NCBI RefSeq assembly: GCF_009184895.1
Contig: NZ_WESE01000002.1
Location: forward strand, 558,001-622,000
Source of the DNA: Nostocoides sp. F2B08
Lineage (GTDB): Bacteria > Actinomycetota > Actinomycetes > Actinomycetales > Dermatophilaceae
DNA length: 64,000 nt
Direction: 5' to 3'
A model generated the notes under the pieces. That model saw only the letters and a list, made by a program, of their open reading frames with translations, did no database searches and was not told the DNA's origin. Every line of letters begins with the position of its first letter. Position 1 is the stretch's first letter. A program made the translations under genes and the position numbers. Positions 14,167-64,000 of this stretch are shown here, piece by piece.

Positions 14167-14213
14167 CCGAGGCCGACCCGACCCGCCCGCCAGATCGGGG
14201 CGCTGCGCCGGAA

Positions 14214-14273
14214 CCGGTGCGGTGTTCGACGTTTGGGCCGCTACAGCGCACCAAACACGGAGCACCGCACCGG
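14214..14273. repeat. intergenic palindromic repeat / probable two-way terminator
   Basis: Perfect 11-base outer arms CCGGTGCGGTG (14214-14224) and CACCGCACCGG (14263-14273) enclose GTTTGGGCCGCTACAGCGCA and CCAAAC, the core shared with 6935 and 26166. It lies between the convergent dmpP and iclR-type genes. Confidence 0.7.
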
Positions 14274-14322
14274 CTGCACCACAATGCACCAAGTACGGGT
14301 GACATACGGAGGCGCGCGCCAG

Positions 14323-42744: not shown

Positions 42745-42921
42745 CGACGTTCGATCAGCTCCTCCCGAGAGCATCTCCACAGAAGCTGTGGGGGAAGTGT
42801 GGGGGAATCTTGCCGAGGAGTTCCGAGTTTCGGAATGCCCCCGGCTGCCGGACAAACTGGAGACTAGCTACTGTGACGTCAAGAGTTGGCTGCCAGGCGT
42901 GAGGAGGGGGTGGACGGGACG

Positions 42922-44727
42922 ATGTGCATCGAGGGGTCGACGCCAAGCTCACCTTCGGCTGACAGCTTCGTCCCCGTCGCACCCGATGCCGTCAGAGTCT
43001 GCTCCGGCGACTGCCAAGAGGCGAAGCCAAGCACGGCGTTCCCAATTGGAAATGGGCTGACGGGTGCCAGGTCGAGCGAGTGTAGGTCCTGCCGCGACAA
43101 GCGGATCAGAACTGGGGTCGGAGGGAGTGACGGCGACGACGCGATAGGTCACTATCGGTCTGGTGGCCGGAGAGAGACGCTTCGCGTCCAGCGCCAGACG
43201 GTCAGGGAGGCGGTCACGCAAGTAGTCAAGACGCACGCCGGGGTAGCCATGACCATCAGGCAGATATACAAAGAGGTCTTGGACTTGCTCGATATTGTCC
43301 CCCATGAGATCGATGTAAAGAAGATTCTCCGGGACCTCGAAAAGGAAGAGCCTTATCTCCTGAAGGTGGGTCGAGACGCCTACGCCTGGGATCCGGAGGC
43401 GGCCAGCGAAAGTGCGGTGGAACAGTACCGGATCAAAGAGACGCGACGAGTCCAGCGCCAAGCGGTCATTGACACGGTCTCCCATGTGCTGAGCACGCAC
43501 GTCGGCGTAGCGATGACCATCAGGCGAGTCTACGAAGAGGCAGTGCGTCTGCTTGATTTTGTTCCCCCTGAGGGTGATGTGCGGAAGGTCCTAAGCGATC
43601 TCGCCAAATCAGATCGCCGTCTCGTGAGGGCGGGCCGAGACGCCTACCTGTGGGCTCCCGACGGCAAGATTGGCCAGCTTCAGCCGGTTGGACCAAGACA
43701 GACTCTTCGAGTCCAGCGCCAGGCGATCAGTAACGCGGTCTCCGAGGTGCTGAGAACGCGCCCCGGGATAGCTTTGACGATTAGCGAGATATATGAAGAG
43801 GCTGTGAATCTGCTCGAATTTACCCCCGCTGAGAGCGATGTGCGGAGGATGCTAAAGGACCTCGCCAAGTCAGAGCGATACTTGGTGAAGGTCGGTCGAG
43901 ACGCTTACGCGTGGGCTCCCGACGGAGTCATTCCTCCCCGGCCGGCGCCGCCACATGTGGTCGGCATGATCGAGCGACGGTGGCGGGGAGACACCCTCGA
44001 CGAGATCGGCCAAGCGTTCGGGGTGACCCGTGAACGGGTTCGGCAGCTGCTCAAAAAGTACGGCGGCCCGAGTTGGGCCGAGGTGCGTCGTCTCCAAATT
44101 GAACAGGCCGAAGGGGAAGAGCGGGCTCGGCAAGAGGCGGTCGCGACGAAGATCCGCACCCTTCTCGCCGGCGCGGGTGCGACGACACCAGAGGATGTGG
44201 CAGCCAAGACGGGGCTCGATGCCGCGGACGTGTCCAAGTTCTGGCCAACCGATCTAGTCCACTTGCGGTTGTGGGGCCATGGGTCCCACGAGAGTCGATG
44301 GTCTGATGAGGAGATCCTTGAGGTCATCCGTGAAGCGGCGATCTACGAGTTCCCACTGACGGCAAACGGTTATGCAGAACTGCTAACAGTGGGTCAGGTG
44401 ACTGGCCCATCGCTGCCAAGAGTCAGCCAAAGATTCGGATCCTGGAGCGCAGCCTGTGATGCGGCGGGCGTGGTATCGGGACAGACTTACCGTCCCCACT
44501 ACGAATCTCAATGGGGAGACGAAGACATCCTGAGCATAGTCCGGGCCTACCTTGAAGATCCGACAGCGCCGAACTCGATCCAGGGCTATGACGTGTGGAA
44601 ACGGGCCAATGCACCGGACGGACCATCTGGTCAGACCATCAGAAACAGATTCCGATCATGGACGGCGGTCAAACGACTTGCGCTGACCACCTCTTCGATC
44701 GCCCGGGAGGAACCTACCCATGAATGA
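42922..44727 (+). CDS. DNA-binding protein with three winged-helix-like repeats and HNH-type repeats
   Basis: A 601-residue protein, first of the restriction-type cluster. The N-terminus has a zinc-type C-x3-C...C-x2-C (CSGDC, CRSC) as in HNH-associated proteins. Three near-identical 87-residue modules start at nucleotides 43174, 43438 and 43699, each reading TLRVQRQ, a helical part, then LVKVGRDAYAWAPDG. Next comes a sigma-region-4-like helix-turn-helix (LDEIGQAFGVTRERVRQLLKK). The end carries two homing-endonuclease-associated (HNH_repeat) modules (WSDEEILEVIREA; RFGSWSAACDAAGV). No HNH catalytic core is seen, so target recognition or regulation is more likely than cutting. The start is uncertain (TTG 42886, GTG 42910 or ATG 42922). 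Its stop overlaps the Z1 gene start. Confidence 0.7.
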   Translation: MCIEGSTPSSPSADSFVPVAPDAVRVCSGDCQEAKPSTAFPIGNGLTGARSSECRSCRDKRIRTGVGGSDGDDAIGHYRSGGRRETLRVQRQTVREAVTQVVKTHAGVAMTIRQIYKEVLDLLDIVPHEIDVKKILRDLEKEEPYLLKVGRDAYAWDPEAASESAVEQYRIKETRRVQRQAVIDTVSHVLSTHVGVAMTIRRVYEEAVRLLDFVPPEGDVRKVLSDLAKSDRRLVRAGRDAYLWAPDGKIGQLQPVGPRQTLRVQRQAISNAVSEVLRTRPGIALTISEIYEEAVNLLEFTPAESDVRRMLKDLAKSERYLVKVGRDAYAWAPDGVIPPRPAPPHVVGMIERRWRGDTLDEIGQAFGVTRERVRQLLKKYGGPSWAEVRRLQIEQAEGEERARQEAVATKIRTLLAGAGATTPEDVAAKTGLDAADVSKFWPTDLVHLRLWGHGSHESRWSDEEILEVIREAAIYEFPLTANGYAELLTVGQVTGPSLPRVSQRFGSWSAACDAAGVVSGQTYRPHYESQWGDEDILSIVRAYLEDPTAPNSIQGYDVWKRANAPDGPSGQTIRNRFRSWTAVKRLALTTSSIAREEPTHE

Positions 44728-46768
44728 AGTCGAGCGGCTAGATGCGGTCCTAGCGTCGGGGATCGACGATGAGACACGCAATGGGATATGGGCGTCTGTC
44801 CAGGCGATTCTTCAGCGAGGGCCGAAGGAAGGGATGAAGACTGGGGAGACAGTGCTCGCGCTGGGCTATGTTCAGTCGGGAAAGACAACGTCGATCACAG
44901 CACTTGCAGCCGCTGCGGCTGATGACGGCTACCAGGTCATTGTCGCTTTGCTTGGATCGACGAACCTTCTACTCGACCAGAACAGCGAGCGCTTGGAGGC
45001 CTCCCTAGGCATCACTACGAGGTCCGACTATGTCTGGATCAGCGAGACGAACCCGTCGAGCGAAACGGCCGGCAAGAAGCTCCGTAAGTTCGTCGACATG
45101 GGACGCGTCTGCTTGGTACCGGTGCTCAAGCACGCAGGACGGATCCGGGCGGTGGCCAAGCAGTTGGAGAAGATCCCTGATGACGTCCGCGTTCTGATCA
45201 TTGACGACGAGGCGGACCAGGCATCCCTCAATACGAGCAAAGCCGCCGAGAGCAGCACCTACGCCGCCATCCGAGAACTGCGGAAGTCAGTGCCTAGCCA
45301 TCTTTACGTACAGTACACAGCGACCCCCTATGCGCCCCTGCTGCTGGACGCCGCCGACATCCTTAGTCCGCAGCATGTAGAGTTCCTGGCGCCCGGGCTG
45401 GGGTATACGGGAGGAAAACAGTTCTTCATCGACAACGCAGATCGTGTTGTGCGGAACGTGCCGCTGTTGGACGAACAGGCATCGAAGACGCCCCCCCTTC
45501 AGCTTCAGAAAAGCCTGTACCAGGCCTTGTCCGCCTTTCTCGCAGGTTCCGCCTTGCTCCTGCTGCATGATGCCGCAAGCCCTCCGATAAGTATGCTGGT
45601 GCATTCTACTGCGCGGAATGACGTCCAAGCACGGTATGAATTTCTGATTCGCCGACAATTGGAGCAGTGGCGGAAGTCGATCGCGGCTGACGACATCTCC
45701 AGTGTCCCTGATGTAATACTCGAGGAACGCAAGCGCCTTGTCGTCAGCGGGGCTGCAGACATAGATGACTACACTTTTCTTCACAAGTTGAAGTTCGTTC
45801 TCTCCCAATCGATGACGTGGCTCGTTAATAGTGCGGCCGACGTCAATAAGGTGGACTGGCACGTCTCGCCAATTCACATCCTGGTGGGTGGCAATAAGCT
45901 AGACCGTGGCTTCACTGTTGAGGGCCTGACTGTCACGTACATGAATCGCCCAGCTAGCCCTCAAGTCGACACGCTGGAACAGCGTGCCCGAGCGTTTGGG
46001 TACCGTGGCGACCTGCTGCCTTATTGTCAGTTTTTTGCAAGCAAGAAGACTGTGCGTTCTCTGACGGAGGTCGTTCATACAGAGGAGGACCTGCGTGCGC
46101 GACTTCGCGATCACGTCGAGAGTGGTGGTTCTGTTCACACGTGGGCGCGTGAGATCGGCCTGCTTCTGCCGGACGGAATGAAGCCAACACGTGCGAGCGT
46201 CGTGAGCGCGCTGTCGGTGATGGGATTGGGCTGGCATCAGATGCGAACCCCCTCTCGCTTGGCGGGGGACACCACCCACAACTACGAGTTGCTCGCGGAC
46301 ATCGGCTTGACCGACGCGCCTCGCGTCCCACAGGGCCGGCTGGCGTTCCGCACTCTTTACGTTGACTCCCTGTCCTCCATTAGGTCCTTGCTCGACGGTT
46401 GGGCCCGTCCGACTTATAGCCCAGGCTGGCTCCACGAGGAGTTCACCGACGCGGTGGTACGAGGCTTCGAGCATCACAAGAAGGCCACTGTCATGCTCAT
46501 GGAGGACGGCGGAAGTCCACGAACCCGCAAATGGTCCGGCGAGCTCGGTTTCGTGAATCTCTTCCAGGGCCGTGACCTCAAGCCACAGCCAAATGGTGAC
46601 TTCTATCCTGGCGACCGGCTTGTCGAGAACCTAGAGAACGAGCCCAACCAAATCCTCATTCAGGTTCATCGCACCAACGTACGGCAACATGAAGATGCTG
46701 GCGAGGTACTGGCCCTGGCGATTTACCTCGGCTCCGGCCTTGTAGTTCGAAAGGAATCTAATGTCTGA
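44720..46768 (+). CDS. Z1-domain ATPase
   Basis: A 682-residue protein of the Z1 family, a superfamily-2-like ATPase found in restriction-modification-type operons. Walker A GYVQSGKTT (residues 49-57), Walker B IDDEAD (161-166), motif YTATP (199-203), then VGGNKLDRGFTVEG and a QRARAFGYR arginine-finger motif. Probably the DNA-translocating or remodelling motor of the system. It overlaps both neighbours by 8 bases, so the genes form one tight operon. Confidence 0.85.
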   Translation: MNEVERLDAVLASGIDDETRNGIWASVQAILQRGPKEGMKTGETVLALGYVQSGKTTSITALAAAAADDGYQVIVALLGSTNLLLDQNSERLEASLGITTRSDYVWISETNPSSETAGKKLRKFVDMGRVCLVPVLKHAGRIRAVAKQLEKIPDDVRVLIIDDEADQASLNTSKAAESSTYAAIRELRKSVPSHLYVQYTATPYAPLLLDAADILSPQHVEFLAPGLGYTGGKQFFIDNADRVVRNVPLLDEQASKTPPLQLQKSLYQALSAFLAGSALLLLHDAASPPISMLVHSTARNDVQARYEFLIRRQLEQWRKSIAADDISSVPDVILEERKRLVVSGAADIDDYTFLHKLKFVLSQSMTWLVNSAADVNKVDWHVSPIHILVGGNKLDRGFTVEGLTVTYMNRPASPQVDTLEQRARAFGYRGDLLPYCQFFASKKTVRSLTEVVHTEEDLRARLRDHVESGGSVHTWAREIGLLLPDGMKPTRASVVSALSVMGLGWHQMRTPSRLAGDTTHNYELLADIGLTDAPRVPQGRLAFRTLYVDSLSSIRSLLDGWARPTYSPGWLHEEFTDAVVRGFEHHKKATVMLMEDGGSPRTRKWSGELGFVNLFQGRDLKPQPNGDFYPGDRLVENLENEPNQILIQVHRTNVRQHEDAGEVLALAIYLGSGLVVRKESNV

Positions 46769-47879
46769 GTCGGTACCGATCAGTGCTGGGCGTGTGGGGA
46801 AGGCTCCCCTTTCGGCGCTTCGGCTTGATCCCGAGAACCCCCGGATTCCCGAAACCCACCGCACCAAGGACACCGCTGAACTAGCGACTCTACTCGAAAT
46901 GGGGTTTGAGGCGTACACTGTGGCCCAATCCATCGTCGAATTGGGCTTCTTCAATGCTGAACCCCTCATTGTCATTCCGTCACCCGATGAGGCTGGCGCT
47001 TGGATTGTGGTGGAAGGCAACCGACGGCTGACTGCATTGATCGGCCTGGCGTACCCAGAGATTCGAGCTGGGTTCGCGACACCCGATCGATGGGAGGTTC
47101 TCGCCACGAAGCGGTCTATAAGCGCCGACATGGTGGTTCCCATTGTCATCCACGAGTCAAGGGCGACTACGCACGCCGAAATTGCTCGAGTCCACGTAGT
47201 CGGCAAACTTGGGTGGCGCCCCTTCATGCAGGCTCGCTACATCGCCGCTCGTGTGGCTGAGGGCCGCACCCTCCAAGAGGTTGCCGATCTAATCGGCATC
47301 CCGAGAAGCAAGGCGGCAGACCTCTATCGTGATCAGGCGGTCCTGACCCAGGCCGCGAAGCTCGGGCTCGAGACCTCGCAGGTTGAGAGTGCGTTCTCGC
47401 TGCTGACGGTGGCGATGGGTAGCACGAAGATTCGGAATCACGTCGGTGCCCCCTTGGGGTCACAGACGGTACTCGGCAAGGATCCGGTGCCCGCCGACAA
47501 GGCAGAGGAGCTCAGGGAAGTCATCCAGTGGGTGTTCGGAGACGAGGAGCACGAGTCTCGGATCTCGGACTCACGCCAGATCTCGCAACTCGGAAATGTG
47601 ATCGCATCCGAGGTTGGACTGGCGGCGCTGCGTGAAGGGAAGACCCTGGAGGAGGCAAAGCAGCGCATTCAGGAGAAGGGTCTGGACCCCTTGAAGGCCC
47701 TCACGTTGAAACTCAACGCGGCGAAGAACTCGCTTTACGCGGCCAGCAGCGATGTCGCCGAGTTCGCCATGGACCTTGATGTTCAGAATCTCGTCGATGA
47801 CATCGAGTCGCTCGTGGGGAGCATTCGCTCGACGCTAGACGATGTCGAGGCGGAGTCAGGCCAGTCGATCGATGACTGA
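46761..47879 (+). CDS. ParB/Srx-like nuclease-fold protein
   Basis: A 372-residue protein with an N-terminal ParB-like domain: LDPENPRIPE, then the phosphate/nucleotide motif VVEGNRRLTALI (residues 83-94) in the place of ParB GERR. A helix-turn-helix follows (TLQEVADLIGIPRSKAADL) and the C-terminus is helical. Stand-alone ParB-like proteins in defence islands may bind CTP or act as nucleases. It overlaps the Z1 gene and the next gene by 8 bases each. Confidence 0.75.
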   Translation: MSESVPISAGRVGKAPLSALRLDPENPRIPETHRTKDTAELATLLEMGFEAYTVAQSIVELGFFNAEPLIVIPSPDEAGAWIVVEGNRRLTALIGLAYPEIRAGFATPDRWEVLATKRSISADMVVPIVIHESRATTHAEIARVHVVGKLGWRPFMQARYIAARVAEGRTLQEVADLIGIPRSKAADLYRDQAVLTQAAKLGLETSQVESAFSLLTVAMGSTKIRNHVGAPLGSQTVLGKDPVPADKAEELREVIQWVFGDEEHESRISDSRQISQLGNVIASEVGLAALREGKTLEEAKQRIQEKGLDPLKALTLKLNAAKNSLYAASSDVAEFAMDLDVQNLVDDIESLVGSIRSTLDDVEAESGQSIDD

Positions 47880-48747
47880 TCTCGAGGTCTCGAGCACGGA
47901 GGCCATCGCGGACTGGATCGAGACGAGCGTGTTTGTCAGTAGCTCGGGTCACTTCGGGCGCGACAAGGTGGATGACCTTGCGACAGCGGAGATCAGTGCG
48001 CCAGCGATGAAGGTGTCGATGGCGCTCGAAGTGATGGCGAAGCGGGCGAGCATTTTGGGCGACGCCTATCCTTTCGTCGTCCGCGACATCGCGGTTCTTC
48101 GCAGGAAGAGCCCTCTGGCTAACCAGTACGCTGCTTTGCTCTACCTAACGCCCGGATCAGTAGCGCGCCAGACGGTCCGGGTGTCGGAGACTGCGGAGAT
48201 GGGGGAGCTCCTGGAGGAGGTAGCCGAGGCGGCGCTGGCCAACTTCTGGGGCGCGGGTGGGTGTGCGCTGTCTTTCGGATACCCATCGAGGCACGGGCGC
48301 CCTGAGTCGTTCGATCAGGCGGTCCGTTGGTTGGCTGGCAGGATGGGCCTGGAGCCTGGCCGGGGCTATCGCCCGCCTCGACGCAAAGACGGTGGCGTTG
48401 ATGTCGTCGCCTGGCGCCAGTTCGCAGATCGCCGGCCCGGTTTTCCCGTGGCCCTCGCGCAGTGCACGATCCAGGCGGAGACCTTCACTAAAACCACCGA
48501 CATCGACCTTCGACTGTGGTCTAGCTGGCTCGCAATGGACAGCGATCCACTCAGCCTGCTGGTGATTCCAGGAACGATCCGATCAGCGGGCCCTAACTGG
48601 AAGCAACTCACCACGGTCGTCATGGTTATCGACCGGGTGCGACTCATGGATCTCCTCAGTCGAGAGCCCGGGAGTTCAGGTGACCTGGCCTGGGTGGACG
48701 CGACCACATCATCGCTGAGGACGGCTCTTAGGGCGGCGGAACTGTGA
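47872..48747 (+). CDS. PD-(D/E)xK-like restriction endonuclease candidate
   Basis: A 291-residue protein. The stretch KDGGVDVVAW ... FPVALAQCTIQ (residues 172-201) has the Asp, spacing and Q-C ending of a PD-(D/E)xK core. The N-terminal 130 residues are helical. In an operon with Z1 and ParB-like genes and beside a cytosine methyltransferase it is the best candidate for the cutting subunit. The ATG at 47872 overlaps the previous stop. The next gene starts in its stop (GTGA). Confidence 0.65.
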   Translation: MTDLEVSSTEAIADWIETSVFVSSSGHFGRDKVDDLATAEISAPAMKVSMALEVMAKRASILGDAYPFVVRDIAVLRRKSPLANQYAALLYLTPGSVARQTVRVSETAEMGELLEEVAEAALANFWGAGGCALSFGYPSRHGRPESFDQAVRWLAGRMGLEPGRGYRPPRRKDGGVDVVAWRQFADRRPGFPVALAQCTIQAETFTKTTDIDLRLWSSWLAMDSDPLSLLVIPGTIRSAGPNWKQLTTVVMVIDRVRLMDLLSREPGSSGDLAWVDATTSSLRTALRAAEL

Positions 48748-49025
48748 CCACCAAGGCCGACCTCGTCTGGACTATCGCCATCAGAGTAGGCGTCGAGCCC
48801 CCAAGAATGTCGACTGGATCAACTGAGCCTCGAGAGATCTTCGAACTTGTCAACGAGAGTCTTGGCCTCGGCATCGACGACAGTCTCACTAAACCCGACG
48901 TGGCTCGCCAGATCGTCGAGGCCGCGGGCATCCCCTGGAATGCACACTACGAGTCGAGCGGAGGCACCGTAACGAAGGTTGGCCTCGAGGCAGTGCTCAG
49001 GGCGGTCGAGCACTTCGTTGCCTGA
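48744..49025 (+). CDS. small protein of the restriction cluster
   Basis: A 93-residue protein of unknown family, GTG start in the previous stop. Helical pattern, with LTKPDVARQIVEAAG and SSGGTVTKVGLEAVLRAVEHF suggesting a small winged-helix-like DNA-binding domain. Last gene of the rightward operon; converges on the methyltransferase with 13 bases between stops. Confidence 0.65.
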   Translation: MTTKADLVWTIAIRVGVEPPRMSTGSTEPREIFELVNESLGLGIDDSLTKPDVARQIVEAAGIPWNAHYESSGGTVTKVGLEAVLRAVEHFVA

Positions 49026-49038
49026 CTGTCCGATCTCC

Positions 49039-50439
49039 CTACCCCGCGGCCCTACGACTGTTGTTCCTCCCGCTTCGACGACGCACGATGACTTCTCGAC
49101 TCGAATCCCAATGGCGCTCAACTGCAGTATCCGGGCTGAGGTGAGATCGCTCGACGGCCGCCGCTAGGCCGGGAGCGCGACGCCGGACCGCAGCCAGCGT
49201 ATGCAGGACGTGTTCACGAAAGACGTGATAGGCGGCCCCAACGTTCACCCCATTGCCCATTTGCTTATAGGTCGCTGCGTCTGGTTGATCGCCGAAGTCG
49301 AACCACTCGGGCAGGCCTTGGAGCCGGGCAGCCTCGCGAGGTGAGATTCGACGCATCCGATCACCAAGGATGCTTGTCTGCGTGATGGCTACGAGAGCCG
49401 GAACATATGTCGCCTGCTTTACCCTCAGCCCAGATGGACGCAGGTGCATTACCGTCTCGCTAAGCGAATCGGCCTCCTGAGCCTGCCACTCGAACTTCCG
49501 CCTGGATGGCGGAAAGTCACGGAGGTAGTCCCATCGGGCTAGCCATGCCTCGAGTAGTTCTCGATGCTCGGTGTAGAAGGCCGAGTTCTTGCGGAGGAAC
49601 GTGGCCTTCCATGCCGCAGTCCCCGGAGGAACTACGAGATCGTCCTGGTGGATGAACGCGTCAACCCATACCGGGAAGCCAGGGAGCTTTTTGACGCCCG
49701 CGGACCGGAGTGTCGTCACGAAGTCGTTCCAGGCCTCGACCCACGTAGTCTCTGCGGGAGCAAGGTTGAGGCGAAGCCTGTCTCTGAGGTCGGACTCCGA
49801 CTGAATCGGCAGGTCTGCGTCCAGATTCCAGCCGGATGGAGACCAGTCGTCGACCGGCTGATGCGGAACCGAGGGGGCGACGTCCTCATGGGAGCGGCTC
49901 ACTCCGAAGTACGTTGCCATGATGAACACCCGCTCGCGGATCTGGGGTCGTCCGCCCCGCTCCGGCGGCAATAGATGGGGAGAGAACACGATGGGGCGGG
50001 ACGATACTTGATAGCCGAGTTCGCGGAGCGAGCGGATGATCACTGCCCACTCGTGCTTGTGCCTCGGACCGTAGATGTTGCGCACGTTCTCGAGCATGAC
50101 GATCGTGGGACGTCGGACTTCCAGGATTCGAAGAATGTTCCAGAACAGAGTGCCGCGGGCCTCATCCATTCCGTGCTGCAGACCAGACTTCGAGAATGGC
50201 TGGCACGGGAACCCGGCGGCGAGCACGTCGTGCGCCGGAACCAACATGGTGGGGTCAGTGTCATTCACGATGTCCCCGAGCGCAGGCCTCCTCCAGTTGC
50301 GTTCATAGACAGCCGCAGCCTCAGGGTCCTTCTCAACTGCATAGACGCACTTGCCGCCCACGGCACCTAGGGCGGCGTGGAACCCGCCGACACCCGCGAA
50401 CAGATCGACGAAGGTGAAGGGGGGGGAGTCCGGACTCAT
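49039..50439 (-). CDS. DNA (cytosine-5) methyltransferase 1
   Basis: A 466-residue 5mC methyltransferase. Motif I FVDLFAGVGGF (residues 10-20), motif IV GFPCQPFSKSG (Cys79), motif VI ENVRN, motif VIII QIRERVFIMA, motif X YKQMGNGVNVG. A long variable region (about 180-370) would recognise the target. The ATG at 50439 is chosen; the in-frame upstream 32 codons are low in complexity. Faces the Z1/endonuclease operon and is divergent from vsr. Confidence 0.93.
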   Translation of the reverse strand: MSPDSPPFTFVDLFAGVGGFHAALGAVGGKCVYAVEKDPEAAAVYERNWRRPALGDIVNDTDPTMLVPAHDVLAAGFPCQPFSKSGLQHGMDEARGTLFWNILRILEVRRPTIVMLENVRNIYGPRHKHEWAVIIRSLRELGYQVSSRPIVFSPHLLPPERGGRPQIRERVFIMATYFGVSRSHEDVAPSVPHQPVDDWSPSGWNLDADLPIQSESDLRDRLRLNLAPAETTWVEAWNDFVTTLRSAGVKKLPGFPVWVDAFIHQDDLVVPPGTAAWKATFLRKNSAFYTEHRELLEAWLARWDYLRDFPPSRRKFEWQAQEADSLSETVMHLRPSGLRVKQATYVPALVAITQTSILGDRMRRISPREAARLQGLPEWFDFGDQPDAATYKQMGNGVNVGAAYHVFREHVLHTLAAVRRRAPGLAAAVERSHLSPDTAVERHWDSSREVIVRRRSGRNNSRRAAG

Positions 50440-50732
50440 GTTCGCCAGCTTAGCTGATGCTTGAGCTATCCCGCCGGAACCGCCGTGTTGGCGCCCACCC
50501 CCGGTTCGGGGGGCCCTCCTAGGAGTTGTCATCATGGCGCATCCTTATCAGTTCGTTGCTCAGGATCTGGATCGTAGGTGTGACGTCCGACAGCAGGTAC
50601 GCAACCCAGGTCCCCGGTCACGGTGACGGCGGATCAATCACGAGCGGCGAACTGGCAAGCACAAGGATCCACGAGAAAGGTAGAGCAGATTGCCGGTTGG
50701 CGGTCTTTACCTAGTCTCTGCGTAGCCTCAAC

Positions 50733-51200
50733 ATGCATGATGTACCGGTGACCGCCGAGTACAAGCCTTGGGCGTCATCTCCGCGCGTCCGCGCCGCGAT
50801 GCGGGGAAATCGTCGGCGCGACACACGACCTGAACTCGCAGTTCGTCGGGCGGTGCACGCCCTTGGGTTACGGTACCGGGTCGATGCTCGGCCCCTTGCC
50901 GACCTCAATCGCCGCGCGGACTTGGTCTTCCCTCGCGCCAAGGTCGCTGTCTTCGTGGATGGTTGCTATTGGCACGGATGCCCGGTGCACGGCACTGTGG
51001 CCCAGACGAACGCTGCCTACTGGGATCAGAAGATCCGCCGTAACCGTGAGCGAGATCTTGAAACCGATACGGTGCTGGCTGAACGGGGGTGGACTTCGCT
51101 ACGCGTGTGGGAGCACGAGCTGCCCGCGGAGGCAGCGACGCGGGTCTTCTCTGCCGTGATTCTCGCCCGCTCCGCTTCCGTCCGAGCAAAGTCCGACTAA
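50733..51200 (+). CDS. vsr: very short patch repair endonuclease (Vsr)
   Basis: A 155-residue mismatch endonuclease that nicks T:G mismatches made by deamination of 5mC. Motifs RRDTRPELAVRRAVHALGLRYR, DLVFPRAKVAVFVDGCYWHGCP and RNRERDLETDTVL. It regularly accompanies a cytosine methyltransferase. The 293-base gap between it and the methyltransferase holds no gene; divergent promoters should be there but none is clear. Confidence 0.93.
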   Translation: MHDVPVTAEYKPWASSPRVRAAMRGNRRRDTRPELAVRRAVHALGLRYRVDARPLADLNRRADLVFPRAKVAVFVDGCYWHGCPVHGTVAQTNAAYWDQKIRRNRERDLETDTVLAERGWTSLRVWEHELPAEAATRVFSAVILARSASVRAKSD

Positions 51201-51267
51201 GGCGCCAGGACACGAGCCGAGCCCCGTGAGAGAGTTATGCCAGGCCCTCGGAGGGACGGAACCACAC

Positions 51268-51732
51268 GTGGAAGACACACTCGTTGTACTCAAGCCGGAC
51301 GCCCTGAGCCGCGGTTTGGTTGGGCGGATCCTTCAAAGATTTGAAGACGCGGATCTTGCATTGATTCAGGCCGAAACGCGATCGCTCGATCCTGGATTCG
51401 TCCGTCAGCACTACCACGATCTTGAAGAGCGGCGCGGCCGGCTAGCTATGGAACTGACGGAGCGGTATATGATCTCCGGTCCCGTCATGGCCTGCCGCCT
51501 CCGGGGGGCGGAGGCTGTCCGCAATTGCCGGCGACTCATTGGCCCGACCATGCCGATAGAAGCGCCGCCGGGGACAATCCGGGGAGACTTCGGGCACGTT
51601 TCGGAGGAAGCCTCGATGACCGCTGGCGTGGCTGTGATGAACTTGGTGCATGCGTCCGGTAGCCCCAACGAGGCGAGGTACGAGCTAAGTCTGTGGTTCC
51701 CCACGCATATCGACCGCTCTCCCCGGGACTAG
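51268..51732 (+). CDS. nucleoside-diphosphate-kinase-like protein
   Basis: A 154-residue NDK-fold protein. TLVVLKPDALSRGLVGRILQRFE, the PGTIRGDFG loop and the catalytic-His motif NLVHAS are present. The canonical NVVHGSDS becomes NLVHASGS, with Asp replaced by Gly, and spacing in the Kpn-loop region differs from housekeeping NDK. The GTG at 51268 is chosen because the family begins just before TLV.LKPD; a GTG at 51226 is the alternative. It converges on the ITPase-kinase gene, overlapping its stop by 4 bases. Either a divergent kinase or a nucleotide sensor. Confidence 0.75.
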   Translation: MEDTLVVLKPDALSRGLVGRILQRFEDADLALIQAETRSLDPGFVRQHYHDLEERRGRLAMELTERYMISGPVMACRLRGAEAVRNCRRLIGPTMPIEAPPGTIRGDFGHVSEEASMTAGVAVMNLVHASGSPNEARYELSLWFPTHIDRSPRD

Positions 51733-53354
51733 GGGCGTTCCATCAATTCAAGGTAAGCCATGCCGGCATCGGTGATAGACCAACGCACGCGACCCGTGGG
51801 CGGGTCGTCCCGAATGGTGGTGTTTCTTGCGAAGTCGAGGATACGCGAGGCGTTGTGATCTCCTAGGCCCTCCGCCTCCTCCAGCTCGGGGAGGGTCAAG
51901 GGACCGCGGTCTCTGAGCAACGCGAGACATCGAGATAAGCGAGTCCTGCGCTCCCTAAGGGAGCGATCCCTCTCCGGTTGCCGCAGATTGCCTCTAGTCT
52001 GTCGGCGATCCGCCGGCCGTAAAACGTTTCCACTGAGCACGTACTCGTTCCAAATGTCGGAGACCATTGCCATGTACTCCTCGAGAGAACCATTGTTCTC
52101 GATGGTCAAGTCGCAGATATCCCGGGCGACGGGTAGCAATCCGAAGTTGTGTTGCGATCGGTCGCGCTGGGCGAAATCGTGCTTGGATCGCACCTCCTCG
52201 CCCCGCTTCCGCACCAGGTAGCGTTCATATCGCATATTGAATGGAGAAGAGATATAAATGACTTTTGACTCGGGGAAGGACCTTAGCATGGTTCGCAGTT
52301 CTTCAAGAGTCCGGAGTCCAGTGATGATGTGTGGATCTCGCTCCATCTCGTCTTTACGATGTTCGACGATGTACTGAGCGATCGCGTCCATACCGAGTTC
52401 TTCAAGAACAGAAAGTGCGTGAGCCGCAGGGTCTGTCGCCCGATCAGGAAAGATTGACGAGCTCTGCTCCGCCAGAGGAGCGAGGAGGCTGCTGGCCTCA
52501 ACATGTTGGGCGTCGCCGTGCACCGTCGCGATGCGAGCAAAGGTGGTCTTCCCCGCACAACTCTCACCGATAACGATGAGTGGAGCTCTTGGCAACTCTC
52601 CGACGGGGGGCAGCAGCGGCAATTGTACGGCGTCCTTCAACGCTGCTACGCGGGGGCTAGCGCGCCGGTAGGCTTGTGAGGGAAGGTTGAGCACCGCTGC
52701 GTACTCCCGGACGCGGGCGAAGAGCGAATTAAGGGACTTCGCTCGGAAGTCGTACAACAGGCTTTCCTCATAATCCATCTGACCTAGCGCAATATCAACC
52801 CCATCCGGCGCGAACCAACCGTTGAACGTGCTGGTGGTGAGCCATGTGTACAGCGGATGGGATCGAGGCGGAGGCTCTCGCATGACCACTGATCCGCGGG
52901 TCTCCCCATGAAAGAACACCGGCTCTCTATGGCCTGGGATGCTCAGTGCAATATCTGAACGCACGGTGACCGCACGGGAACTACCAGCTGCTTCCAGTTC
53001 GCTCGCCAATTTGGCAAAGGTCGTCGAACTGAACCATTCCTTGGTAGACAAGCCAGGATAATCCCCCTCAGGCGAACTTAGCGCATCAATGCGAACCGTG
53101 GTGTCTTCGACAAACACAAGAGCACTACGGCCAGCCGCTCGCACGGCGTGCCCAAGCGCTTTTGCGAGCATCTCGCGGGGCTTCAACTCGTAGTCCTCGT
53201 CATAAGGCTCGGATCCAGCCAAGAACTGTGTCAGCCGCACGTTGGCGTCTTGCGCAAGGATTCGCGCCTGTAGGAACTTCTCGGTGTTCGATGTGTGGAA
53301 GTACAGCACTGGTTCACGGCGACCAGAAGCCGGAAGAGACCGTGTATTGGCCAA
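51729..53354 (-). CDS. fusion: ITPase (HAM1/RdgB)-like domain, P-loop kinase-like domain, winged helix
   Basis: A 541-residue protein. Residues 16-225 resemble HAM1/RdgB NTP pyrophosphatases: FHTSNTEKFLQA near the start, VFVEDTTVRIDAL (catalytic acidic pair) and GDYPGLSTKEWF. A P-loop domain begins at GESCAGKTT (263-271), as in NMP and dephospho-CoA kinases, with KVIYISSPFNMRYERYL later. The last 80 residues look like a winged helix (LPELEEAEGLGDHNASRIL). I know of no described protein with this order. TTG start after GAGGG; 13 bases after the GHMP-like gene stop. Likely converts or senses an unusual nucleotide. Confidence 0.65.
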   Translation of the reverse strand: MANTRSLPASGRREPVLYFHTSNTEKFLQARILAQDANVRLTQFLAGSEPYDEDYELKPREMLAKALGHAVRAAGRSALVFVEDTTVRIDALSSPEGDYPGLSTKEWFSSTTFAKLASELEAAGSSRAVTVRSDIALSIPGHREPVFFHGETRGSVVMREPPPRSHPLYTWLTTSTFNGWFAPDGVDIALGQMDYEESLLYDFRAKSLNSLFARVREYAAVLNLPSQAYRRASPRVAALKDAVQLPLLPPVGELPRAPLIVIGESCAGKTTFARIATVHGDAQHVEASSLLAPLAEQSSSIFPDRATDPAAHALSVLEELGMDAIAQYIVEHRKDEMERDPHIITGLRTLEELRTMLRSFPESKVIYISSPFNMRYERYLVRKRGEEVRSKHDFAQRDRSQHNFGLLPVARDICDLTIENNGSLEEYMAMVSDIWNEYVLSGNVLRPADRRQTRGNLRQPERDRSLRERRTRLSRCLALLRDRGPLTLPELEEAEGLGDHNASRILDFARNTTIRDDPPTGRVRWSITDAGMAYLELMERP

Positions 53355-53367
53355 TTTCAGTCACCCT

Positions 53368-54351
53368 CTACGAAGTTAGGCCACAGTTTCTGGCAAAGGT
53401 CCAGTGCACTCGGCTCGAGTGTTCGGTCGCCGTCTCCATGATGTGATGTATGGCCGATTCATCCGATTCCCGGCATATAGCAAAGACCAGCGGCCCCACG
53501 GAGCTCATACTGCAAGCCACCCCGTCGTGCGCCTCGAGCTTTGTCAGGCTCTGCCTGACGACTTCATGCTGTGACGCTACCTCAATGCGCTTGAAGGCAT
53601 TACGTCGCAACGAGTGGAGCCCATCCCGGAACAACTCGAACTCGGAAGAAGCGACTCCCGCAAACACTTGGTGGTACGCAGCCGCGATTGAGGTGCCTGC
53701 CTCCCGGCTGTCGATCGACCGCGCGGCCGCCGAGAACAGTTGGACCTCTTCCCGCTGCGCGAGCACGTACCCCATCGGGAGGTCTAGCAGCGCGATACGC
53801 CAAGAAGCTGGATAGGCGTGGTGAGCAGCGAGTAGAGGGATGTCGCTTTGACGTCCGAGCGAGGAGGGTCCTAGCCGAGTCCTGGCAGGGTGACCGGCGT
53901 CGAGAACGAGTCCACCAGTCCGGTAGCCGTGGACACCAACACCACTTGCGCCTCCGCGGCCGGAAAGACGAGCCAACTCGTCGTGGTACGGCTCACGGCC
54001 GTTTGACCTGTACACCGCCTCGGCAATGGCAAGTAGAAGCGCGGACTTACTCCCATAACCTCGGTGACTTGGCGGGCGGTGAACGACTTCGATCCTCCCG
54101 TTGAGTCGATCCCCAATGTGACTCTCGAGTCGGTCAAGTAGGGCTCCAACCTGGCAGTGAGCAGAGTCGTCAAGAGGAGTGGCCGACACTATGGCGAGTT
54201 CTTCAGCGGAGGTATGCCACCTCACGAGCGTGCTGGGGCTGTCAAGCATCACCCCGACGCCACCGTAACGTCGTCCAAAATGAGCGGGCAGATCGAGAAG
54301 GCCAAAATGCAAGCGCGAAGCGGCATTGACAACGCCCTCAGCGGAATACAT
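53368..54351 (-). CDS. GHMP-superfamily protein, beta-RFAP-synthase-like
   Basis: A 327-residue protein like beta-ribofuranosylaminobenzene 5'-phosphate synthase, a GHMP-fold enzyme of methanopterin synthesis that joins phosphoribosyl pyrophosphate to an aromatic acid. Seen: ASRLHFGLLDL and RRYGGVGVMLDSP at the N-terminus, the P-loop-like PPSHRGYGSKSALLLAIAE (91-109) and GRGGASGVGVHGYRTGG. No other pterin genes are present, so a different ribosyl or nucleotide reaction is likely. ATG at 54351, two bases after the previous stop; a GTG at 54387 would overlap it. Confidence 0.65.
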   Translation of the reverse strand: MYSAEGVVNAASRLHFGLLDLPAHFGRRYGGVGVMLDSPSTLVRWHTSAEELAIVSATPLDDSAHCQVGALLDRLESHIGDRLNGRIEVVHRPPSHRGYGSKSALLLAIAEAVYRSNGREPYHDELARLSGRGGASGVGVHGYRTGGLVLDAGHPARTRLGPSSLGRQSDIPLLAAHHAYPASWRIALLDLPMGYVLAQREEVQLFSAAARSIDSREAGTSIAAAYHQVFAGVASSEFELFRDGLHSLRRNAFKRIEVASQHEVVRQSLTKLEAHDGVACSMSSVGPLVFAICRESDESAIHHIMETATEHSSRVHWTFARNCGLTS

Positions 54352-54353
54352 GG

Positions 54354-55142
54354 TCACGGCGCTGGCCGCGAGTTCTCGTCGGACCACAGCTGCTCGAAAT
54401 GGTCCATGAGCCGATCGAACAGAAAACCGTCGCCGACCAGAAGCGTGGGAGTCCTCCTTGATGGCTGATGCAAAAGATAGGGGCCAAAGAACATCGAGCT
54501 ATCGACTCTGAAAATATTCACGCTGGGCATGGTCCGATAAAGCCGCACAGTGAAGTTGGTGTTGCTGTTCCGCAGTGCTTGAGTCTCGTCCAGGAATTGC
54601 CTAACCTCGGCACGTATCGTTCCAAGATTGGCGCCCTCCTCCCGGTCCCTGGCATCTGCATAGGACGACTTCTCATCGGGCGCGTCGGGATCGAGCAGCA
54701 GAACGCGAACGTTACAGCGTTTTGCCCACTCATCGAATGATCCGGAGAAGTCTTGACGCAAACTGTTCAGTCCGAATCCCAAGATGTCGATCTGACGGCT
54801 GGCGTAACGCAGGCGGTCTTCATACTCCGACCGAATAGAGACGCTACGAGTCGCAAAGATTGAGTGCAGACCGGACCGCTCAAGCGACCTTTGGCGCTGA
54901 GCTCGCCCTTCCTCAAGCAATACATGGAAGAAGGCAACGAGGCCCGCGATACCGGTAGCAATCAGCCCAGTGCCGACGGCCGTCCACGCGGCACCTTCGA
55001 TTGACAGCATTATGCCGCCAGCCATTGCGATGACAATCTGGACCAAGAAATAGACCGGGTTTGAGGAACGAGTCGCATTGCGCCAGGCTGCTCGCATTGT
55101 CCGCCCCAAGGTGGACGTGACCTTCATCATCCCACCAGCCAT
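54354..55142 (-). CDS. two-helix membrane protein with PLD-like C-terminal domain
   Basis: A 262-residue protein. Two membrane helices (about 29-48 and 52-75) are followed by a cytoplasmic domain: YASRQIDILGFGLNSLRQDF, VRVLLLDPDAPDE, MPSVNIFRVDSSMFFGPYLL and a C-terminal HFEQLW. The pattern recalls phospholipase-D-fold proteins without a clear HKD motif. Small two-helix proteins with a cytoplasmic sensor or enzyme domain are common effectors in defence systems. The ATG at 55142 has AAAGG seven bases upstream. Confidence 0.6.
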   Translation of the reverse strand: MAGGMMKVTSTLGRTMRAAWRNATRSSNPVYFLVQIVIAMAGGIMLSIEGAAWTAVGTGLIATGIAGLVAFFHVLLEEGRAQRQRSLERSGLHSIFATRSVSIRSEYEDRLRYASRQIDILGFGLNSLRQDFSGSFDEWAKRCNVRVLLLDPDAPDEKSSYADARDREEGANLGTIRAEVRQFLDETQALRNSNTNFTVRLYRTMPSVNIFRVDSSMFFGPYLLHQPSRRTPTLLVGDGFLFDRLMDHFEQLWSDENSRPAP

Positions 55143-55236
55143 GACCAGACCTTTCGTTTTCGAAGGGCTCGACCCGCAAAACGGAGTGCGGAGGTGGCTA
55201 GCTTGCCCGATCCTGGCGCACCCCCCTGCCCTGGCT

Positions 55237-56307
55237 TCACGCCGACATCCACTTCTCGAAGGGAGATGCACGAGTTAACATTGTCTGAACGACCAGTCCT
55301 AAAGCGGTTGCCAAGCGGACAGGCACAGCGTTGCCGATTTGCCGCTCGATCGAGTCGTAGCCGCCGTGGAAGTGATAGTTCGGCGGGAAGGTCTGAAAGG
55401 TCGCGGCCTCCCGAAGCGTGAGGCCGCGGTTCTCTGTGGGATGGACGAAGGACCCGCATGCGGGGGTCGTGCAACGTGTCGTCATTGTTGGCGCCGCTTC
55501 GCCAGTTCGCACGCGCCCGTACGAGGCAGTCGCCCCAACCCGTTGTGATTGGCCTGACTCCGTCAGTCGTGTGTGACACTTAAGTTGATGCTGAGGTGGA
55601 AGGTCAAATCGGTCGCCCCCTATCGGAATTGCCGAGATCCGCGCAGTTACTGAGGGATTGCTTTTGCGGAATCTGTTACACGGATCGCCAGGCGAAAGGT
55701 GTTTGGCGAGTTCGTCTAGGGCTTCTCCAGCAGTACGGTGAGAGAGGTCGAATTGAGGAGGAACGAGGTCTTGAAGATCCCTGGGCAACTCACTTGTGAT
55801 GCTGCGGCGAACCGCCAACACTATCAGTCGGCGGCGTCGCTGCGGGACGCCAAAGTTTCTTGCGTCGACTGTGTAAGTTGAGTGCTCATAACCGGCTCCT
55901 TCCATCGCATGGAGGAGAATAGGGAGCCGTTCATCACGCGCAAGGCCGGGTACATTCTCGACAATCACTGCCTTGGGGCGGAAGTCGAGCACGAATCGAA
56001 GGACGTCCAACACAAGGTCGTTGCGCAGGGGGTCGCTACTCGTGCGCGTGAGGCTGCTGAATCCTTGGCAGGGCGGACAAGCCTTGAGGATGTCGAGTTC
56101 GCCGCGCTGCAATCCGAGAAACCGCCGCAGGCGATAGGGGACGATGCCGCGCACGTCTCCAGCCATGATGACATCGGGATGGTTGGCCGCGAAGGACTCG
56201 GCAGCGTTGTTGTCGTTCTCCGCGGCTGCGAGGACGACGAACCCAGCGTCCCTCAACCCCTGCGTGGCTCCGCCTGCACCAGCGAAGAGATCAATCGCTG
56301 TCCTCAC
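55237..56307 (-). CDS. DNA (cytosine-5) methyltransferase 2
   Basis: A 356-residue 5mC methyltransferase with a complete motif set: DLFAGAGGATQG (I), ACPPCQGFSS (IV, Cys80), VIVENVPG (VI), QRRRRLIVLA (VIII) and QIGNAVPVRLA (X). It is shorter than methyltransferase 1 and clearly not its duplicate. First gene of the leftward operon with the membrane, GHMP-like and ITPase-kinase genes, or a solitary neighbour 94 bases away. Confidence 0.92.
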   Translation of the reverse strand: MRTAIDLFAGAGGATQGLRDAGFVVLAAAENDNNAAESFAANHPDVIMAGDVRGIVPYRLRRFLGLQRGELDILKACPPCQGFSSLTRTSSDPLRNDLVLDVLRFVLDFRPKAVIVENVPGLARDERLPILLHAMEGAGYEHSTYTVDARNFGVPQRRRRLIVLAVRRSITSELPRDLQDLVPPQFDLSHRTAGEALDELAKHLSPGDPCNRFRKSNPSVTARISAIPIGGDRFDLPPQHQLKCHTRLTESGQSQRVGATASYGRVRTGEAAPTMTTRCTTPACGSFVHPTENRGLTLREAATFQTFPPNYHFHGGYDSIERQIGNAVPVRLATALGLVVQTMLTRASPFEKWMSA

Positions 56308-61817: not shown

Positions 61818-62020
61818 TCTACGTGCGAAGCATCCAATGCGCCCCAAGTAGTCCGGGGCGCGGATCAGAGCAGTCCAGTGCCGACCGTTGACGAGTCCGC
61901 GAACGCATCCCCCGACATCGCCGAAAGCCCTTCAAACCCTGCGGCACGCATGCTACGAATTTCCGTAGGGATGTCCCCCTGTGGATGAAAAACACTGATC
62001 CACAGTGTAATTGACGAGTA

Positions 62021-64000
62021 GTGACGGGCGGTGACGAGGTGCACGGCGGGGTCAAGTTCTACCGTGGCAACGCCGCCGCAGCGCGCAACTACGTCGAAGC
62101 AGATCGCTCCCGGGTCGACGACTACTACCTCGCCGAGGGGACCGGCCTCGCCACCCACATAGTCGCCCTCAACAACGGCGACGGCGTCACGATTACGGAC
62201 GCCGGCCAGCTCGACGGACCGGCCTACGAGCGATGGGTCGCCGGCTACGACGTCGCCACCGGCCTGAGGAAGGGCCGGCTCCGCCAGGACGACAACGCCC
62301 TGCGCTTCGTCGAGGTCGTCGTCAACGGACCCAAGAGCTGGTCCCTCGCCGCGGCGATGCACCCAGCAGTGGCCACCGCATACGACGCCGCTCAGGACCG
62401 CGCGGCTGGCGAGATCATCGCCTGGCTCGCCGGGCACGCCACCACCCGGATCGGCCCGCGCGGCCGCCAGGTCCAGATCCCAGTCGAGCGGCTCGAGGCC
62501 GCGATCGTGCGGCACCACACCTCCCGCGCCGGTGACCCGCATCGGCACCTGCACCTGCAGATCAACGCCCGCGTCTTCGCCGCCGGCACCTGGCGAGGAC
62601 TGCACTCGGTCGGCGTCGTCGACTCCATCAACGCACTCAACGGGATGGGGCGGGCCGCGATGCAGTGCGACCCGCAGTTCCGACAGGTCCTCGCCGACCA
62701 CGGCTACACCCTCGACCCGAGCACCGGCGAGGTGAAGCAGCTCGCCGACTACATCGGCCGGTTCAGCGCCCGCGCCGAACAGATCACCCGCAACGTCGAC
62801 CGCTACGAGGCTGAGTGGCGAGCCGAGAACCCGGGCCGCGAGCCCGGACCGAAGCTGCGCGCTGCCTGGGACCGCCGCGCCTGGGCGCAGGCGCGCCCCG
62901 ACAAAGTCGCCCCCCTCGACGGTGCCGACCTCACCCGCCGCTGGAACCAGGAGCTGGCCGACCTCGGCTACGCCCCCCCGAATGCCCCCACCCCCCTGAA
63001 GAGCGTGCCGATCGCGGCGCTCAACCGCGACGCCGTCGTCGAGGTCGCCATCTCCCGCCTGGGCGCGAAGCGCTCGAGCTGGAACGCCGCTGACATCCGC
63101 GGCGAGGTCGAACGCCTCATCGCCGACGTCAACGTCATCGCGTCCGGTCCGGTGCGTCGTGAGCTCGCCGAGGACCTCACCTCCCGTGCCCTCTCTGTAT
63201 GCGTCCGCCTGCTCGAGCGGGACGACGTGCCTGAGCACGTGCGCGCATTGACCTCGAAGCGGGTCGTCGACGTCGAAGAGGCCATCACCGCCAAACTCAT
63301 CGAACGGGGAGGTTGGATAGTCGCCCAGGCGGCCTACGGTGCGACCAACTTCCCTGAACTCGACCCGACCCAGCTCGACGTGGCCCGGGTGCTCGCCGGC
63401 TACGCGCAGTTGCTGGTGGTCGAGGGCGCAGCCGGGTCGGGCAAGACCACCACGTTGGCCGCGGCGCAACAGATGCTCACCTCTCACGGCACGCGGATGG
63501 TCGTAGTGACGCCGACCCTGCAGGCGGCCAGCGTCGCCGCCGCCCAGGTCGGCGCCGAGGCCCACTCGGCAGGATGGCTGATCCATCAACACGGCTTCCG
63601 TTGGGACGACGACGGGTTCGGGTGGCGGGTAGCCAGCGATCCCCAGCCGGAAGCGCAGCTCAGGAACGGCGACCTCCTTCTGATCGACGAGGCCGGCATG
63701 CTCGATCAGGACACCGCACTCGCCCTGCTGATGATTGCCGACGAGAACCACGCTCGGGTCGCGTTCGTCGGGGACCGCCACCAGCTCCCGGCGGTCGGAC
63801 GCGGAGGTGTGCTCGACCTCGCCGCAACATGCGCGGGACCACGAGGTCGTTGGTCCCTGGAGACCGTGCACCGCTTCCGCGACCCTGAGTACGCGGACCT
63901 GTCTCTGCTGATGCGGTCAGGCGATCGTGCCGGCTACGTCTTCGACACGCTCCTGGACCGCGGTGAGGTCGTCATCCACTCCTCGATGGCTGAGGCGCTG
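62021..64000 (+). CDS. MobF/TraA-type conjugative relaxase-helicase, N-terminal part
   Basis: An open frame of 660 codons that runs off the window. The relaxase domain begins with KFYRGNAAAARNYVEADRSR and DDYYLAEGTG (nicking Tyr pair), then the metal-binding His motif PHRHLHLQINAR. A RecD-like helicase follows: VVEGAAGSGKTTTL (Walker A), LLLIDEAGMLD (Walker B), FVGDRHQLPAVGRGG. Such proteins nick and unwind DNA during conjugative transfer of plasmids or integrated elements. The GTG at 62021 is the first start after an in-frame stop at 62012; a GTG at 62039 is possible. The 203 bases between the IS and this start hold no gene. Confidence 0.88.
   Translation, partial: MTGGDEVHGGVKFYRGNAAAARNYVEADRSRVDDYYLAEGTGLATHIVALNNGDGVTITDAGQLDGPAYERWVAGYDVATGLRKGRLRQDDNALRFVEVVVNGPKSWSLAAAMHPAVATAYDAAQDRAAGEIIAWLAGHATTRIGPRGRQVQIPVERLEAAIVRHHTSRAGDPHRHLHLQINARVFAAGTWRGLHSVGVVDSINALNGMGRAAMQCDPQFRQVLADHGYTLDPSTGEVKQLADYIGRFSARAEQITRNVDRYEAEWRAENPGREPGPKLRAAWDRRAWAQARPDKVAPLDGADLTRRWNQELADLGYAPPNAPTPLKSVPIAALNRDAVVEVAISRLGAKRSSWNAADIRGEVERLIADVNVIASGPVRRELAEDLTSRALSVCVRLLERDDVPEHVRALTSKRVVDVEEAITAKLIERGGWIVAQAAYGATNFPELDPTQLDVARVLAGYAQLLVVEGAAGSGKTTTLAAAQQMLTSHGTRMVVVTPTLQAASVAAAQVGAEAHSAGWLIHQHGFRWDDDGFGWRVASDPQPEAQLRNGDLLLIDEAGMLDQDTALALLMIADENHARVAFVGDRHQLPAVGRGGVLDLAATCAGPRGRWSLETVHRFRDPEYADLSLLMRSGDRAGYVFDTLLDRGEVVIHSSMAEAL

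Follow-up and report, generated by a model that had tools for sequence, protein, structure and literature searches.

What might a DNA methylase, a small membrane protein and two proteins with predicted nucleotide-related activities do together in a single run of genes? The question is raised by a locus of Nostocoides sp. F2B08, on the 64,000 nt stretch NZ_WESE01000002.1 558,001-622,000 (the window; coordinates are counted within it). On its minus strand, a C5-cytosine DNA methylase gene is followed by genes for a membrane protein with a phospholipase D (PLD)-like domain, a GHMP-fold enzyme resembling ForT and beta-RFAP synthase, and a fusion of a HAM1-like domain, a P-loop kinase domain and a putative winged helix. 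Our best explanation, which we rate at a probability of about 0.5 for the full mechanism, is that the last three genes form the core of a methylation-gated, nucleotide-based defence module, served by an exchangeable methylase. That these four parts make up a conserved module is a claim we hold with much higher confidence than the mechanism. The module probably represents a kind of defence not yet described: the gene set was not found in the open-access literature searched, which mostly excludes subscription papers, so that a description elsewhere is possible.

A conserved core and its exchangeable methylase

Twenty-four loci besides the window (L002-L024 and L034) were gathered by tblastn with the fusion, by a pattern scan of species genomes and by a scan of viral contigs. 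The tblastn search returned four plasmid records carrying the full fusion. Among 84,980 species genomes, the pattern scan picked out 44 stretches, 19 of which encode a relative of the fusion, a count that is a lower bound since the patterns must match. Of two scans of viral contigs, the one with the single protein found no locus and the one with the alignment found one, L034, among 98 stretches. A preliminary description of the window had proposed co-occurrence in other genomes as a test of the module; among these loci, all retrieved through the fusion, the membrane gene and the GHMP gene directly precede the fusion, in the same order and on the same strand, in 24/24. Because that order is constant, the association of the core genes lies far beyond chance.

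The loci span at least the five phyla Actinomycetota, Acidobacteriota, Pseudomonadota, Bacteroidota and Chlorobiota, and the fusion was found in the window alone when the window's class (1/394) and phylum (1/396) were searched; it was absent from the three other genomes of the genus examined (1/4, the window itself). In a reverse search, a type-2 membrane protein retrieved four plasmid records, identical to the four with the full fusion, and a type-1 membrane protein (from L007) retrieved no plasmid record. The module is not a phage gene as far as can be judged from 50,697 phage records, where tblastn with the window fusion found no match. In a tree of the fusion, in which the window stands as a long row of unusual composition and from which the entries L001 (the window itself), L005 and L013 were left out, the window, L006, L007, L008 and L034 split from the remainder with full support (100/100).

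Some copies are degraded. Several genes are frameshifted in L005, as is the fusion in L013; a stop codon lies within the membrane gene of L021, and L008 is cut by the end of its contig. Ten rhizobial plasmid records match just C-terminal pieces of the fusion (residues 420-536), some of them annotated as hypothetical proteins, which is a sign of turnover.

The preliminary description listed the methylase among the genes of the locus but left it out of its model. It turns out to be the constant, though exchangeable, partner: a methylase gene or remnant stands beside the core in 23 of the 24 other loci. The window methylase belongs to the C5 class (PF00145, expect value (E) 1.7e-53; TIGR00675) and matches the PADLOC models for DruM and for type II methylases. 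An intact D12-class methylase lies upstream in 15 of the 24 loci, as detected with a profile built from five and confirmed by PF02086 for L009; complete four-gene sets with such a methylase include those of Methylobacter (L012), Aromatoleum toluclasticum (L022) and Gallionella (L024). The D12 methylase of L005 is frameshifted, those of L013 and L021 are remnants that match over 78 and 50 residues, and that of L017 is truncated by the contig end. Dam-like D12 methylases (PF02086) follow the fusion in L006 and L008, and one is convergent with it in L007 (PF02086). Two methylases accompany the L034 core, one of the N6_N4 family upstream on the opposite strand and one of Eco57I type further downstream. 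In L015, where the contig stops 518 bases before the membrane gene, no methylase was found. Three methylase families are therefore paired with one core inside the tree group of the window, L006, L007, L008 and L034, and such swapping on a constant core is to be expected of a methylase whose role is to label self DNA for the core. Both loci with a remnant-only methylase also have a broken core gene (the fusion frame in L013, the membrane-gene stop in L021); this joint decay, in two cases from draft assemblies, fits a core that is harmful without its methylase and proves nothing. A small gene, encoding 164 and 174 residues, respectively, lies between the methylase and the membrane gene in L011 (6791-7285) and L014 (6760-7284), and has no Pfam match.

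The surroundings of several loci are those of defence genes or mobile elements. A type I HsdR gene stands immediately before the module in L014; in L016 the module is followed by type I M, S and R genes, PDC-S11 and DarG; PADLOC candidates adjoin L019 and L023; L003 and L008 have integrases as neighbours; and L010 encodes a conjugation coupling protein. In a first hand-picked set of neighbours, 8/10 proteins match PADLOC at 1e-5, five of these from L016, and some of the others are generic, such as a helicase and a MotB-like protein next to a type VI gene. Enrichment in defence islands is suggested. The core proteins themselves are strangers to PADLOC-DB 2.0.0, which agrees with the earlier statement that no named system is known with this content: the window membrane and GHMP proteins match no model, the fusion reaches only E 0.024 with a CARF-AAA model, and none of 16 HAM1 domains has a match at 1e-3.

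Predicted activities of the core proteins

The GHMP protein of the window, with GHMP N and C domains by Pfam, scores above the cut-off of TIGR00144 (130.8 bits vs 113.5) and below that of NF040726, the equivalog model for beta-RFAP synthase (150.2 vs 328 bits). Its best solved relative is ForT (6yqq), matched over the whole length with E 1.1e-20 from the single sequence and E 6.1e-51 from the family profile. ForT is presented in PMC8183095 as the phosphoribosyl pyrophosphate (PRPP)-dependent enzyme that forms the C-C bond in the synthesis of formycin, a C-nucleotide antibiotic. With the roles of ForT residues in PRPP binding, substrate placement and catalysis taken from PMC8183095 and PMC9832568, the equivalents of R19, L24, R135, S139, the catalytic base E211 and K263 are retained in 24/24; that of H99 is retained in 22/24, the T106 position holds T in 22 loci and S in two, T138 is variable, and S174 and V294 were left out of the comparison. 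These and all later residue counts omit L001 and the frameshifted L005 and take the L013 fusion by its first piece; counts for the membrane protein additionally omit L008 (contig cut) and L021 (internal stop), giving n=22.

These residues suggest that the GHMP enzyme is probably active and would most likely make a C-nucleotide from PRPP and an aromatic acid, and they point in the direction of the earlier proposal that the gene set makes or handles an unusual nucleotide. Two enzymes from methanopterin clusters carry R-x-H and a G at the S142 position, without the lysine, and a ForT-like rhizobial enzyme carries R-x-S plus the lysine. Because the pocket residues of the module match neither pattern fully, its GHMP proteins look like a third subfamily beside the ForT-like and methanopterin-cluster enzymes, as far as sequence can tell. 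The methanogen enzyme uses p-aminobenzoate, whose binding is influenced by R26 and D19 according to PMC6787355; the R26 equivalent is retained in 24/24, and the D19 equivalent, by our own placing, is D in 7/24. According to PMC8183095, the equivalent arginine lies far from PRPP, and for that reason the conservation of R26 is weak evidence on the substrate. A role in methanopterin synthesis was considered and set aside, as the two relatives in such clusters have different neighbours and no lysine. Elsewhere, a Mesorhizobium plasmid (L031; 5980-7444 and 9173-11859) carries a ForT-like gene near genes for an 8-oxo-dGTP diphosphatase, SAICAR synthase and purH; these may form a C-nucleoside cluster similar to that for formycin.

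The N-terminal part of the fusion is recognizably HAM1-like (PF01725, E 9.6e-11), and has family-profile and fold matches to PH1917, ITPA and MJ0226; a PDB search with this part as a single sequence found nothing, the family profile being needed. Foldseek with the predicted model of the fusion (mean predicted local distance difference test (pLDDT) 79.4) lists ITPA and the KomBC chains 8zsg_E, 9xvc_A and 9v0g_A, with E from 3.7e-10 to 4.8e-9. In HAM1 proteins, the base pocket is formed by the FGYDPxF and SHR motifs, and TSNxxK and ED are the phosphate and metal motifs. The latter are largely kept in the fusion: K26, E83 and D84 are invariant (24/24), and the N23 position holds N in 15 and S in nine. 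The base pocket is remodelled, with G[YFW]DP absent in 24/24, DFR at the SHR position in 24/24, and, close to the first base-pocket site where the alignment is loose, a TFNxWF motif that is invariant except for one T to S change. The separate RdgB of the Nostocoides genome carries both canonical motifs, and an ordinary house-cleaning role for the fusion was rejected in view of this better-scoring HAM1 protein (191.7 vs 45.3 bits). Judging by the altered motifs, the nucleotide handled by the fusion is probably not inosine or xanthosine triphosphate, as is usual in HAM1 proteins. In the Kongming system, as PMC12948488 and PMC12774641 describe it, KomA, a phage kinase and the host nucleoside diphosphate kinase (NDK) make deoxyinosine triphosphate (dITP), which activates KomB-KomC, and a HAM1-fold nucleotide gauge in phage defence thus has a precedent.

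The middle part of the fusion has P-loop matches below the cut-off in Pfam (AAA_33, E 0.0024) and a profile match to 3lw7 and 3h0k (E 2.5e-22), the former an AMP-bound relative of adenylate kinase; its P-loop is intact. At about residues 460-539, the model has an order of elements like that of a winged helix, on which the structure-match lists are little informative. The divergence of this region was compared among five type-1 and 16 type-2 loci of the 24 aligned rows, leaving out L013, L015 and L017. In the three type-1 pairs with Dam-like methylases, the winged helices are 41-45% identical at a HAM1 identity of 43-55%, and in the seven other type-1 pairs they are 32-37% identical at 43-64% (L007 and L034, for instance, share 64% in HAM1 and 37% in the winged helix). 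The ratios of winged-helix to HAM1 identity are 0.80-0.96 for the Dam-like pairs vs 0.57-0.77 for the others. The Dam-like trio is the sole fully separating trio of ten possible, a chance level of about 0.1; the pattern fits a winged helix that would track methylase specificity as a sensor, and is not significant. The fusion gene of L004, from Rhizobium leguminosarum, overlaps at its end with a gene (13593-14414) that has a below-cut-off match to DUF5677.

The membrane protein, with homologs in the 24 other loci, some of them partial, has two hydrophobic stretches of helix, at residues 29-47 and within 51-89, judged by eye to be membrane helices, and a long helix, followed by the PLD-like domain; its predicted model has a mean pLDDT of 85.8, falling to about 55 across the first 30 residues. 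The PLD-like part best matches TrmBL2 (Z 13.8 over 137 residues, root-mean-square deviation 2.4), with FAM83B and NucT as further neighbours and TrmB lower, and a Pfam match to DUF5919 lies below the cut-off (E 2.9e-4). The preliminary description needs a correction on this domain, whose catalytic signature is missing, the HKD motif (HxKx4D) being found in 0/22 proteins. A nuclease is therefore unlikely, though the fold neighbours include nucleases such as NucT, and the simplest reading of the model is a membrane-anchored, putative ligand-binding domain. On the viral contig of L034, near the module, lies a gene (13315-14658) for a protein with a C-terminal NUDIX domain, whose N-terminal part looks membrane-like by eye, with a PLD-like middle.

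The window locus and its neighbours

The five adjacent open reading frames and their domains, as first named, all stand, with Pfam matches for the NDK, Ham1, GHMP and C5 methylase proteins (Table 1). With the starts preferred there, the spacing first described also holds: gaps of 94 bases from the methylase stop to the membrane gene, two from the membrane-gene stop to the GHMP gene and 13 from the GHMP gene to the fusion, and a tail-to-tail overlap of four bases (51729-51732) between the fusion and the NDK gene.

Table 1. Genes and domains of the module and the adjoining NDK gene, in window coordinates
Feature	Coordinates	Strand	Remark	Basis
C5-cytosine DNA methyltransferase	55237..56307	-	First gene in run; variable methylase slot	PF00145, TIGR00675, PADLOC
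Membrane protein with PLD-like domain	54354..55142	-	Open reading frame opens at 55271; ATG 55142 preferred	
Beta-RFAP-synthase/ForT-like GHMP-fold enzyme	53368..54351	-	ATG 54351; open reading frame opens at GTG 54387	TIGR00144, 6yqq match
HAM1/nucleoside monophosphate (NMP)-kinase/winged-helix fusion	51729..53354	-	541 residues; TTG start	PF01725, kinase profile, model, fold matches
HAM1-like domain of fusion, residues 15-222	52689..53312	-	TFNxWF and DFR in place of the usual base-pocket motifs	
UPF0200/AdkA-like P-loop kinase domain of fusion, residues 258-440	52035..52583	-		Profile and fold match
Putative winged-helix domain of fusion, residues 460-539	51738..51977	-		Element order in model; divergence pattern
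Divergent second NDK copy	51268..51732	+	Convergent with fusion	PF00334

The module had first been put forward as five genes, of which the three core genes and the methylase are conserved and the NDK is found in the window only. The window NDK (PF00334, E 1.9e-32), with NLVHASGS surrounding its histidine, sits between a Vsr gene and the fusion, and is the second of two in the genome, scoring 112.1 bits vs 165.7 for the other copy. As BLAST at 1e-3 found no match to it in the open reading frames of L002-L024 or L034, it was rejected as a core member; it is plausibly a helper in this genome only.

The locus lies in a stretch of low G+C content (59-63% across 42-57 kb of the window, 67-71% on either side), which starts right after tRNA-Ile and tRNA-Ala genes and has two phage-type integrases downstream of it. 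A search further down the window for a second copy of the tRNA-Ile/tRNA-Ala stretch gave matches of only 10-11 bases, and a search for an empty insertion site detected the flanking gene at 61865-63871 in 1/11 relatives. A neighbouring cluster (42886-50535 and 50733-51200) encodes a 613-residue protein with a sigma-70 region 4 match, a Z1-domain helicase, a PD-Lambda-5_A-like protein, a 301-residue protein with a weak Mrr match, a second C5 methylase of DruM type and the Vsr nuclease, which we infer to belong to that cluster and not to the module.

A possible mechanism, its rivals and the nearest known systems

Methylase swapping, the placement of some loci among mobile or defence genes and the decay of others together lead us to infer a role in defence. 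In the mechanism that we favour, the methyltransferase would tag host DNA as self, as the swapping of partners suggests. The ForT-like enzyme, judging by its active-site residues, would couple an aromatic acid and PRPP to a C-nucleotide 5'-monophosphate, which the kinase domain of the fusion could phosphorylate, and an NDK, housekeeping or local, would yield the triphosphate. The remodelled HAM1 domain may then bind or hydrolyse that triphosphate, much as KomB senses dITP in Kongming. The weakest step is the proposal that the winged helix might sense unmethylated foreign DNA and turn synthesis on or hydrolysis off. The putative effector is the membrane protein, in which binding of the nucleotide would lead to membrane damage or shutdown. 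The best reading of the restriction arm is that it yields a C-nucleotide signal or toxin rather than DNA cuts. More specifically, unmethylated foreign DNA, read by the winged helix, might trigger a C-nucleotide second messenger, made from PRPP and a common aromatic acid, that opens the membrane effector, a tentative idea that we put somewhat below even odds.

Several observations weigh against this mechanism. Some ForT contacts are changed in 24/24: S142, which contacts the 5'-phosphate, is G, while H and E replace S21 and Q266, which contact the carboxylate. The module encodes no source of the aromatic acid, and the kinase domain may use a substrate other than the product of the GHMP enzyme. 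The winged-helix argument draws on five loci and falls short of significance. Of the four plasmids, three are typed as non-mobilizable and two are 2.5-2.8 Mb in size. In a second set of neighbours only 3/20 proteins match PADLOC at 1e-10; recognised defence genes adjoin just some loci, and the neighbours were hand-picked, without a background rate.

Alternatively, the C-nucleotide could itself poison phage replication, with the HAM1 domain destroying the triphosphate to shield the host and the membrane protein exporting or confining the product. In its favour, ForT makes a C-nucleotide antibiotic precursor (PMC8183095), and HAM1 enzymes are house-cleaning hydrolases, of whose phosphate and metal motifs three residues are retained in 24/24. 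Such a pathway requires no DNA methylase, yet one adjoins 23/24 loci, and the membrane protein resembles a soluble domain on hydrophobic helices and no transporter; we consider this reading unlikely. A further alternative is a selfish, restriction-modification-like addiction module, with the methylase as antidote, the core as toxin and defence as a side effect, which would suit the mobile settings of several loci and the state of L013 and L021, where methylase and core have decayed together. That explanation is nonetheless improbable, given three non-mobilizable plasmids out of four, the lack of any PADLOC match beside L011, L012, L013, L018, L020, L022 and L024 (one to four neighbours scanned at each), and its failure to predict why a nucleotide pathway should serve.

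Small-molecule or cofactor biosynthesis unconnected to phages, with the methylase as a hitchhiker, draws on the two relatives of the GHMP enzyme within methanopterin gene clusters. The missed NF040726 cut-off, and the three methylase families in five arrangements beside one conserved core, leave it a slim chance. We give a slimmer one to the notion that the GHMP and HAM1 proteins are non-enzymatic sensors of PRPP or nucleotide pools altered by phage, which gate the membrane protein: KomB is indeed a sensor of HAM1 fold, and the ForT positions S21, S142 and Q266 are changed throughout, but retention of the E211 base and of R19, R135, S139 and K263 in 24/24 would be unusual for a pure sensor.

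If the favoured mechanism holds, one operon would unite self-marking by DNA methylation with a nucleotide-messenger alarm, and C-nucleotides would join the known immune signals or weapons. Should the C-nucleotide be a messenger, then to our knowledge an immune signal with a carbon-linked base would be known for the first time, as would a restriction-modification-like system that answers by a small molecule. It would be a compact four-gene set of soil and water bacteria, whose enzyme product could be sought by mass spectrometry, and it might account for part of the bacterial relatives of beta-RFAP synthase outside methanopterin clusters.

Among known systems, the archaeal UPF0200/AdkA-like kinases (3lw7, 3h0k) match the module kinase over the full domain, whereas the latter is fused between HAM1 and the winged helix. 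ForT and beta-RFAP synthase (MptG) share with the module enzyme a whole-length match and most of the tested PRPP, substrate and catalytic residues; unlike them, it has other neighbours and a hybrid pocket, in which the methanopterin-type R-x-H is combined with K-xx-E (K-xx-Q in ForT). The two-helix effectors of type III CRISPR exemplified by Cap1 resemble the membrane protein in placing a transmembrane helix pair on a ligand-binding domain, putative in the module and there PLD-like instead of CARF-like. KomA is an adenosine deaminase and KomC a SIR2-like NADase, and the Pfam scan of ten window genes (44720-56307) revealed neither a deaminase nor a SIR2 domain. The module further differs from Kongming in its fused kinase, its ForT-like enzyme and DNA methylase, and its membrane protein as effector candidate. 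What it shares with Kongming, going by PMC12948488 and PMC12774641, is a HAM1-fold protein and, as predicted here, the route to a non-canonical nucleoside triphosphate through NMP kinase and NDK steps. With type II restriction-modification it shares varied methylase classes beside a conserved partner and joint decay in two loci, yet the four window genes encode no nuclease domain and the partner consists of nucleotide-metabolism and membrane proteins. No known family thus fits in full, since the Kongming partners and a restriction nuclease were not found and the methanopterin equivalog score lies below its cut-off; in its logic, the module stands close to both Kongming and restriction-modification.

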